Notes under the pieces: generated by a model
What the model saw: the letters and a program-made list of their open reading frames with translations, nothing else
Told to the model about the DNA's origin: nothing
Database searches by the model: none
In this document: positions 10,967-12,317 of the stretch, one piece after another
Layout: each line of letters starts with the position of its first letter
Numbering within the stretch: the stretch's first letter is position 1
Made by a program: the position numbers and the translations under genes
From: Sulfitobacter sp.
GTDB lineage: Bacteria > Pseudomonadota > Alphaproteobacteria > Rhodobacterales > Rhodobacteraceae
Length of the DNA: 64,000 bases
NCBI GenBank assembly: GCA_029252045.1
Contig: JAQXCD010000062.1
Location: 1-64,000, forward strand
Reading direction: 5' to 3'

Positions 10967-11386
10967 CTATTCGGGATCAACCTTCCCACGCATGGCCTTT
11001 ACCTCGCCCCGTACTTTCTTCTCCTTCAGCCGCCGCTTTTTCGATCCCAGCGTAGGCCGTGTCGCAATCCGCCGTTTTGGCGGCGTCAGCGCCTGTTCAA
11101 TCAGCGCCTTTAATCGCTCACGAACCAAGTCGCGATTGCGGGCTTGACTGCGTGTCTCGTCGCATTGCAGGACCAAAGCACCCTCAGTGGTCCAGCGTCG
11201 CCCGGCAAGCCTGCGTAGACGGTTCTTAACCGGCAGCGGCAAGGAAGGAGATGTGGCGGCCTCGAACCGCAACTCGACAGCGGAGGAAACCTTGTTCACA
11301 TTCTGACCGCCCGGGCCTGAGGCGCGCATAAAGCTTTCGGTAAGCTCCCAGTCTTGAAGAATAATGGCGTCAGTGATGTATAACAT
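10967..11386 (-). CDS. arfB: Peptidyl-tRNA hydrolase ArfB (ribosome rescue), 139 aa
   Basis: ArfB enters the empty mRNA channel of stalled ribosomes and releases the nascent chain. The release-factor GGQ motif is at 26-28 (ASGPGGQNVNKV). A basic tail (about 105-139, with GSKKRRLKEKKVRGEVKA) matches the tail that binds the mRNA entry channel. The start at 11386 (MLYITDAI) is chosen over an open frame reaching 11521, because the extra 45 residues are encoded by a terminator hairpin and a leader. A terminator 45 bases upstream on the same strand suggests attenuated expression. Confidence 0.9.
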   Translation of the reverse strand: MLYITDAIILQDWELTESFMRASGPGGQNVNKVSSAVELRFEAATSPSLPLPVKNRLRRLAGRRWTTEGALVLQCDETRSQARNRDLVRERLKALIEQALTPPKRRIATRPTLGSKKRRLKEKKVRGEVKAMRGKVDPE

Positions 11387-11430
11387 AGGGCACATCATAG
11401 CGCCCATCGGCGCAAGGTGAAGGGCCGACG

Positions 11431-11460
11431 AAAAAGGGCCACCCTGATACAGAGCGGCCC
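11431..11460 (-). terminator. Rho-independent terminator upstream of arfB
   Basis: On the minus strand, GGGCC and GGCCC, extended by a G.U pair and CTCT/AGGG, form a 10-pair stem with a 5-base loop, followed by five Us. It closes the candidate leader/small RNA and lies between it and the arfB start. It is therefore either the 3' end of an independent RNA or an attenuator of arfB. Confidence 0.75.
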
Positions 11461-11533
11461 AATCGAATTGTATAGGAGGTGGGATCGGTAAGACCGACGG
11501 TCCACTTCGGCTTTCAGTCAACCAGGGGCTGCC

Positions 11534-11590
11534 CTAGCAAGTGACCTCCAAAGCTGTTCCGACACCTCGCTCCAGTACCTTTCTTGACAC
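11534..11590 (-). CDS. Possible 18-aa leader peptide
   Basis: GTG at 11590 follows AAAGGAGGTG with a 5-base spacer, about the best ribosome binding site in the window. The ORF reads VSRKVLERGVGTALEVTC and stops at TAG. Its binding site is the 5' strand of the long-range stem to 11474-11481, so translation and RNA folding would compete. It is upstream of a terminator and arfB, which suggests a translation-sensing leader peptide. It could be chance within a structured RNA. Confidence 0.35.
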   Translation of the reverse strand: MSRKVLERGVGTALEVTC

Positions 11591-11699
11591 TAGATCACCT
11601 CCTTTACATTTGTTGAACCCAAGGAAAGCGTCCCACAGGTTCTCCAAATCACAAAGCGTTTTTTCAGGAAATTTAAAATAACCTGACCAAGTCGCCGGA

Positions 11700-12317
11700 T
11701 TAAGCAGCAAGCAAGCGCGCGGTGATGATGCGGAACGGGATCAGCGCCAACAACGACAGCGCCAGCTTTACGCCCCAATCTGCAACCGCAAGCGAGACCC
11801 AAAGCGGGGCTTCAGGCCCTACCCCCAATAGCGGCAAAACCTCAGCAGCCCAAGAGACATCAGTCGCCGGGTGGATGAAGGTTAGTGCGCCGGAAAAGGC
11901 CACAGAGAAGAAAATAACCGTATCAATGCTGCTGCCGATTAGTGTGGACACAAGCGGCGCTTTCCACCAACTGCCATTGCGCAGGGCGGCAAAGATACCA
12001 ACGTCGAGCATTTGGGCAATGAGAAACGCAAGGCCGGACCCTATCGCGATACGTAATGTAACCAGCGGCCCGAATTCGCCCATGATCTGCGTACCGATCA
12101 GCGAGCAGATGATGCCGACAACAAAGCCTGCCATCACCACGCGGCGCGCAGCGGCAGTGCCGTAGACGCGGTTCATCACGTCCGTGACAAGGAATGCCAG
12201 CGGGTAGGTGAATGCCCCCCAAGTGAGCCAGTTTCCATAGAGAAATTGAACAAGGATATTTGAGGCCACAACGATGGCGGCCATGGCAATGATGCCAGGT
12301 AGATGTATGCGTGTCAT
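11700..12317 (-). CDS. yhhQ: Queuosine precursor transporter (YhhQ/QPTR, VUT family), 205 aa
   Basis: Membrane protein importing 7-deaza-guanine precursors (preQ0/preQ1 or queuine) for queuosine in tRNA. About six helices are visible, with the family segments YPLAFLVTDVMNRVYG (about 37-52), GSGLAFLIAQMLDVGIF and STLIGSSIDTVIFF (about 122-135). A TTG at 12338 would add seven residues, but it lies within a candidate preQ1 aptamer, so the ATG at 12317 (MTRIHLPG) is preferred. No good Shine-Dalgarno sequence is visible in front of either. Confidence 0.85.
   Translation of the reverse strand: MTRIHLPGIIAMAAIVVASNILVQFLYGNWLTWGAFTYPLAFLVTDVMNRVYGTAAARRVVMAGFVVGIICSLIGTQIMGEFGPLVTLRIAIGSGLAFLIAQMLDVGIFAALRNGSWWKAPLVSTLIGSSIDTVIFFSVAFSGALTFIHPATDVSWAAEVLPLLGVGPEAPLWVSLAVADWGVKLALSLLALIPFRIITARLLAA

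Follow-up and report, generated by a model that had tools for sequence, protein, structure and literature searches.

Introduction

In Rhodobacter and the rhizobia, the CUCCUCCC-motif sRNAs hold a C-rich anti-Shine-Dalgarno (anti-SD) element in their loops and use it in trans. In the Sinorhizobium meliloti duf1127 leader, as far as the available text describes it, the ribosome-binding site of an upstream ORF (uORF) pairs with the first codons, and ribosome availability is the proposed signal (PMC12218461), and an available account of Staphylococcus aureus has extended SD pairing direct the choice of start (PMC13009471). RF01867, the Rfam family of the Caulobacter sRNA CC2171, is named in the available part of the Rfam 15 paper among the families with improved structure (PMC11701678), and Mesorhizobium huakuii MH_s33 has been assigned to it (PMC5596092, available part). 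According to the available text of Schrader 2014, intergenic Caulobacter ncRNAs are mostly untranslated, and two earlier predicted ncRNAs, whose names are not given there, are translated (PMC4117421). CC2171 is not named in the available parts of a Caulobacter Hfq study (PMC11005374) or of a Bradyrhizobium sRNA study (PMC5082802), and in a literature search that took in few subscription papers we found no paper on the RNA described here or on an ORF in CC2171 RNAs.

The present work concerns a stretch of 64,000 nucleotides from a Sulfitobacter sp. contig (the window), in which a first-pass annotation had pointed to a structured leader or small RNA in front of arfB. To judge from the conservation of its parts, the window holds a real, widely conserved RNA gene. 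By the same comparisons its lineage spans several alphaproteobacterial orders, the window RNA being the Rhodobacteraceae branch, related to the Caulobacter sRNA CC2171.

Results

As the first-pass annotation had it, AAAGGAGGTG (at 11605-11596), an 18-codon ORF with a GTG start, the distal CACCTCCT and a terminator all lie on the minus strand of the 313-nt intergenic gap (Table 1). It had also described a 10-pair terminator 45 bases before arfB; the terminator is there, but we counted 11 pairs (G-T allowed) and 44 nt from the end of the T tract to the arfB ATG (11386). The RNA is present as a single copy in its own genome, in which second copies were looked for. A mobile or phage origin was considered and set aside, as a distant blastn search gave no match among phages or plasmids.

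Table 1 Features of the RNA locus and its neighbours, in window positions
Feature	Position	Strand	Remarks
Small RNA gene, ~190 nt (predicted extent)	11431..11620	-	Extent set by the likely promoter and the terminator
Likely promoter of the RNA: TTTGTG (11655-11650), 17 nt, GACGCT (11632-11627)	11627..11655	-	Conserved upstream block
Ultra-long Shine-Dalgarno (SD) AAAGGAGGTGATC	11593..11605	-	13 nt contiguous complement of the 16S rRNA 3' tail
ORF, 18 codons, GTG start, TAG stop, peptide VSRKVLERGVGTALEVTC	11534..11590	-	Fixed length in related loci
Start-codon hairpin UCUAGUGUC / GGUACUGGA	11571..11594	-	Helix 2: 95.5% of cells paired, 1/9 pairs changed on both sides
Stop-codon hairpin GCUAGGGCAGCCCCUGG	11520..11540	-	Helix 6: 7/9 pairs changed on both sides
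Distal anti-SD CACCTCCT	11474..11481	-	Exact complement of AGGAGGTG; helix 1: 97.8% of cells paired, one-sided changes only
Intrinsic terminator: stem 11460-11436, T tract 11435-11431	11431..11460	-	Helix 8: 7/11 pairs changed on both sides
Probable separate arfB promoter CTTCAC-N17-TATGAT (scan: TTCACC-16-TATGAT)	11394..11422	-	Sigma-70-like scan; predicted
arfB, downstream neighbour, outside the RNA unit	10967..11386	-	NF006718 ArfB, 182.7 bits, cut-off 100
Queuosine precursor transporter (YhhQ type), upstream neighbour	11700..12317	-	TIGR00697, 91.9 bits, cut-off 50.95

The promoter-like pair in front of the RNA places its start near 11620. Of the 30 genus loci, 26 have a TTTG-N14-20-TGTG block upstream, where shuffling of the letters gives 0.07 of 30, with the proviso that this pattern was chosen after viewing the sequences and that an earlier one with longer spacing had matched only 3 of 30. 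Several other family members have TTTTGACA at the position of the RNA promoter, and a TTG/TA...T-type pair was found upstream in 15 of 20 relatives from the wider class (2.06 in shuffles). A generic sigma-70 scan of 11350-11760 did not call the likely promoter of the RNA. For a type I toxin mRNA, one would look for a hydrophobic toxic peptide and an antisense RNA; consensus scanning of 11350-11760 showed no antisense promoter, and the peptide of the ORF is not hydrophobic by inspection.

In the 102 Rhodobacteraceae-type loci (this set and the 72-locus set used below require the Rhodobacteraceae ORF type, with Glu at codon 7, and may count one place twice, as L026 and L110), the transporter is upstream in 94 and the RNA lies between it and arfB in 86. 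The first proposal had been a leader that senses ribosome activity and controls arfB by permitting readthrough. In keeping with it, arfB follows the RNA on the same strand in 93 of the 102 loci (84 within 332 nt of the SD, nine at 528-1131 nt), and Sinorhizobium has a comparable uORF leader that senses ribosomes (PMC12218461, available text). However, the only sigma-70-like site in 11350-11760 falls between the RNA terminator and the arfB ATG (0.3 sites expected by chance, so that it is weak alone). Of 93 loci, 27 also have a TAnnnT hexamer ending in the 5-9 nt range upstream of the arfB start, and ten other offsets gave counts of 0-4. The fuller pattern (CTT-type box, 16-18 nt, NNTGNT) occurs in 19 of 93 loci only, and the 66 loci without TAnnnT just before arfB again favour the leader. 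On these sequence patterns arfB probably has its own promoter, located after the terminator; as the ATG follows TATGAT by 7 nt, the arfB mRNA of the window is probably leaderless, and the conserved position of the hexamer suggests that at least some species have an arfB mRNA with next to no leader. Moreover, arfB is absent from the stretch examined in eight of the 102 loci (one further locus had no room for it), and the nine more distant copies leave a gap of more than 400 nt. Outside the order, crude gene calling at 20 loci put the next gene on the same strand in nine, on the other strand in ten and nowhere in the stretch in one, so that no downstream gene is fixed among the 19 loci with one. 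We therefore rejected control of arfB as the main reading and consider it very improbable. The other option that had been offered, an independent small RNA, gains from the RNA's own terminator, its likely promoter and its persistence without arfB.

Some other neighbours are recorded here as observations: beside the RNA, several unrelated clades have a gene for ribosome rescue or RNA quality control. A release factor 3 (RF3) gene lies upstream on the other strand in L098 and L157, and an RNase R-like gene lies downstream in L060 and L078; partial sequences of two of these loci gave matches below the full-length cut-offs (RF3 in L098, 350.3 bits; RNase R in L060, 58 bits). In L035 a tmRNA is found about 1.2 kb upstream of the RNA, arfB being the neighbour in Rhodobacteraceae. 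At many other loci the neighbours are unrelated to ribosome rescue.

At gathering thresholds, Rfam returned nothing in the window. A permissive scan gave RF01867 at 24.2 bits against a cut-off of 75 (E 0.0017-0.0049), the alignment running over model positions 1-159 of 159 with the middle unaligned; when two sets of related loci were submitted to Rfam, 9 of 20 and 7 of 18 reached the cut-off. By blastn the RNA was found in 35 of the 36 genomes of the genus, its own included, and in none of 24 genomes of other families, a degree of conservation that is far from what chance would give. Searched with the RF01867 model at E <= 0.01, the order gave matches in 132 of the 149 genomes (63 of 72 genera), none above the 75-bit cut-off and ten with an additional, weaker match, and the class gave matches in 46 of 192 genomes, six of which exceed the cut-off. 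The model also matched the unrelated Deinobacterium chartae below the cut-off in a control search, so that lone weak matches prove little, whereas a conserved layout does. Of 385 class genomes, 21 contain the pattern AAAGGAGGTGATCYAGTG and none contains it in reversed form as a control, and the layout is present in 19 of the 21 matches (L033 and L037, with unrelated ORFs, were dropped before counting). A scan of named genomes returned at least 118 stretches, and among the 80 listed are Bradyrhizobium, Methylobacterium, Bosea, Microvirga, Ancylobacter, Devosia, Brevundimonas, Phenylobacterium, Falsiroseomonas, many Rhodobacteraceae and a few records labelled gammaproteobacterial; L096, L123 and L165 carry the pattern without the layout. 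One Rhodobacteraceae-type copy with an 18-codon ORF (L131) is on a contig labelled as a Gammaproteobacteria MAG and is perhaps misbinned.

The loci were gathered in ways that bear on what can vary in them. The named-genome scan fixes GTGTC, and codon 2 of L052-L169 is therefore not free to vary. L001-L030 came from blastn, and L170-L199 and L201-L220 from RF01867, none of them chosen by ORF length or stop; the RF01867 model itself contains the SD and GUG letters, and only its best-scoring 30 matches in the order and 20 in the class were taken.

Folded singly, the window RNA has z = -3.87, and 0 of 200 shuffles were as good. We built one alignment (A1) of 29 of the 30 genus loci and another (A2) of 47 of 60 loci, near-identical or long ones being left out. 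The consensus fold of A2 has 53 pairs: a helix between the SD and CACCUCC encloses the start-codon hairpin, an inner stem, the stop-codon hairpin and a small 3' stem, and the terminator then follows, its stem standing isolated in the consensus structure. In A2, 94.0% of cells are paired, against 88.3% in shuffled alignments and 36.0-55.0% in slid versions, a comparison that favours the fold in the latter case, as it was derived from the same alignment. Pairs changed on both sides number 25 against 14.8 in shuffles, and 0 of 500 shuffles reach 25. The structured RNA that had been proposed, with its small ORF, SD/anti-SD helix and terminator, is supported by this covarying fold. The expectation of covariation was thus confirmed for the fold as a whole and not for AGGAGGTG/CACCTCCT itself: there the changes that keep pairing are on the 3' side only, and with an invariant SD side two-sided covariation could not be demonstrated. 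A helix common to all clades was considered and set aside, as class RNAs make 7.4 pairs with their own partner against 6.6 with the partners of others (71 distinct starts), which is a weak gain. By eye, a few clear compensations were seen among class RNAs (CATTGC/GCAATG, CATAGTT/GACTATG, CATGGTT/GACCATG and AATGAGATT/AATCTCAT).

The distribution of invariance bears on whether the RNA works in trans as an ordinary base-pairing sRNA, its CCUCC blocking, for instance, the SD sites of mRNAs and its ORF being a side product or only a stabiliser. In favour of this are the independent unit with a terminator, the conserved stretches CUAAC and CACCUCC of the 3' half and the relatives classed as sRNA by Rfam, and most Caulobacter ncRNAs are untranslated (Schrader 2014, PMC4117421, available text). 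Nevertheless, the most invariant stretch is the SD with the start codon and not a seed, the length and stop of the ORF are kept, and the distal CCUCC is absent in most of the relatives examined from other orders, though two Devosia loci have ACCTCC. We regard action in trans as unlikely.

The ORF has exactly 18 codons in 71 of the 72 loci of the Rhodobacteraceae ORF type and in all 30 loci picked by RNA similarity (the best-scoring matches of the order). Its stop codon in the 72 loci is TAG in 48, TAA in 12, TGA in 11 and a sense TTG in one. On a parsimony tree of 59 of 60 sequences, on which synonymous and nonsynonymous changes were counted, changes that create a stop within the ORF number 4 against 14.1 expected (P = 0.002), with codons 9-13 slightly above expectation (2 vs 0.5); no branch has an in-frame stop in codons 2-18, and the other two frames have 8 and 18. 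The stop codon itself underwent 15 parsimony changes, ties being arbitrary, and 14 of these were stop-to-stop. Synonymous changes over the whole ORF are at expectation (86 vs 86.2). Stops are avoided and synonymous changes are as expected, so that the frame, the length and the stop are kept and the peptide mostly not. This weighs on the possibility that the RNA serves as a small mRNA whose 18-residue peptide is functional. The conserved start codon, frame and stop fit such an mRNA, as do the common pattern V-S-x-x-x-L-E-x-G-V-G-T of the Rhodobacteraceae-type loci and a slight synonymous excess in codons 2-8 (35 vs 26.1, P 0.02), but some of the shared codons are also paired within the RNA, synonymous change over the whole ORF does not differ from random expectation, and both length and sequence of the peptide differ between orders. 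We judge a functional peptide to be distinctly unlikely.

In the 20 class relatives the start codon is GTG in ten and ATG in ten, at a constant 13 nt from the first base of AGGAGG, and their ORFs of 18-26 codons share little past the first codons; between orders, the peptides have mostly 14, 18 or 20-26 residues, with outliers. Two Bradyrhizobium loci (L075 and L080) and L045 of the same type have a 14-codon ORF, VS(Y/F/C)xKRCHLAGIAR, in nearly identical DNA; this ORF contains TCACCTC, a complement of the SD, and a tRNA lies within about 250 nt of the RNA in L045 and L075. Another subgroup (L083, L164, L215 and L218) has ORFs with EQP-type ends (EQPLPSV, EQPLPVS, EQPPGCA and EQPSPTS) and differs in the remainder.

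The contiguous complement to the 16S tail measures 12-16 nt in 30 genus loci, 11-18 nt in 30 order loci and 11-18 nt in 20 class loci, all 80 having been picked by script for GGAGGTG and a start codon, as compared with 3-8 nt at 80 long-ORF starts of the window (the first ATG or GTG of long frames, so that some are not true starts) and 2-9 nt in 4000 random 26-mers. In many relatives it reaches or passes the start codon, and it would presumably extend to the 3' strand of 16S helix 45 (E. coli numbering). The 16S tail was taken to be CTGGATCACCTCCTTTCT, the end of a 57-nt query that was then checked against plasmid records: 237 records match, 209 of them at >=99% identity, and the matches that are exact over the 57 nt include Sulfitobacter sp. 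SK025, Ruegeria sp. TM1040 and Cereibacter sphaeroides. These records, under which no annotation is displayed, are presumably rRNA operons. The 13-mer AAAGGAGGTGATC occurs once in its own genome, in the RNA; the assembly seems to be without a readable 16S, and the tail was readable in none of the 16 genomes examined. With so long a complement, the RNA could be a decoy or partner of the 16S 3' end that binds free or immature 30S subunits over up to 18 nt, the ORF start being secondary; both the 11-18 nt of contiguous pairing, in many loci to and past the start codon, and the matches of the tail in plasmid records speak for it. A pure decoy, however, needs no conserved start codon, frame and stop, yet all are kept, and we hold a decoy to be improbable.

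In folding predictions for 60 Rhodobacteraceae RNAs, opening GGAGG would cost 1.81 kcal/mol on average when the RNA has been made up to the stop codon. For the 57 RNAs in which CCUCC was located, the predicted average rises from 1.24 kcal/mol immediately before the distal CCUCC is made to 6.49 for the complete RNA, with an increase of more than 1 kcal/mol in 57 of 57, and any GGAGG near a CCUCC will always look lockable to a folding program. The model suggests an SD that is open during synthesis and shut once the RNA is finished. In the 20 class relatives the modelled SD cost shows no rise (4.74 nascent vs 3.55 full), and in these the region of the start finds its partner either within the ORF or in the stretch that precedes the terminator. 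Devosia L111 and L128 have ACCTCC shortly after the ORF, perhaps a similar distal lock outside Rhodobacteraceae. The partner strands CACCUCC and CUGGAUC are themselves pieces of the 16S tail, so the lock and the ribosome would use the same letters.

Discussion

The explanation that we prefer, tentatively and with a little less than even confidence, is an independent, translated small RNA gene whose SD would be open while the RNA is nascent and would be locked by the distal CACCTCC when it is complete. The anatomy is well supported; from this anatomy and the folding models we infer that the RNA is transcribed, translated and self-locking, and that it gauges ribosomes. A 30S subunit that reaches the nascent RNA would initiate on the 18-codon ORF, translation would end at the stop codon inside its hairpin, and the long-range fold would stay open. 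If no 30S arrives, the distal anti-SD would close the SD. The 30S subunits and the lock would thus compete, and the state of the RNA would report free ribosomes; selection would keep the act of translating, not the peptide. From there the signal might pass through the freed 3' half, the stability of the RNA or the bound 30S.

Beyond this self-locking gene, the whole lineage of small RNAs may be a direct gauge of initiation-competent 30S subunits, built from a complement copy of the 16S tail, often of 16-18 nt, laid on the start codon, with an ORF whose length outweighs its meaning and a lock made of the tail copies CACCUCC and CUGGAUC; we put this forward as a doubtful proposal. If it is true, it would explain a short ORF that is conserved in length and not in meaning, and it would offer a simple way to study in the laboratory how free-living alphaproteobacteria gauge their spare ribosomes. 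Across its relatives, an RNA that has been classed as a non-coding sRNA proves to have retained an ORF with its start codon and an exceptional site for ribosome binding, and the Rfam cut-off misses a branch that is present in most of the Rhodobacteraceae genomes searched.

Among known RNAs, CC2171 (RF01867) shares with the window RNA a 5' element CAACAA...AAAGGAGGUGAUCcAGUGUC and a 3' terminator hairpin, and in 20 of 20 CC2171 relatives the start codon is at the same offset. The long-range helix is different: in the window RNA the SD would pair with the distal CACCUCC, whereas in many RF01867 relatives UCAUUGUC (codons 2-5) would pair with GACAAUGG before the terminator. The consensus long-range helix of RF01867 falls in the region that is unaligned in the window RNA, and the SD/CACCUCC helix is supported in its place. 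We therefore regard the window RNA as a divergent relative of RF01867 and not as a formal member, as it scores below the cut-off and lacks the long-range helix of the family. The statement that no RNA family has this layout holds in part: RF01867 is a distant relative, never above its cut-off in the order. To our knowledge, the CUCCUCCC-motif sRNAs do not have such a long SD and ORF; unlike them, the window RNA is predicted to pair its CACCUCC with its own SD.

The rnTrpL/peTrpL RNA of Sinorhizobium is also a small RNA with a short ORF (14 codons) and is described as dual-function, but it is leaderless and a tryptophan attenuator of trpE, whereas the window RNA, with its very long SD, is not followed by a biosynthetic gene (PMC10117765, available text). 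The S. meliloti duf1127 leader likewise has a short ORF and gives rise as well to a small RNA containing that uORF. It differs in its control of a downstream gene in cis, presumably Rho-dependent, and in its uORF of 29 residues; no controlled gene was found downstream of the window RNA, and the terminator there is intrinsic. Compared by description in the available text (PMC12218461), the duf1127 leader is the nearest working analogue of the window RNA.
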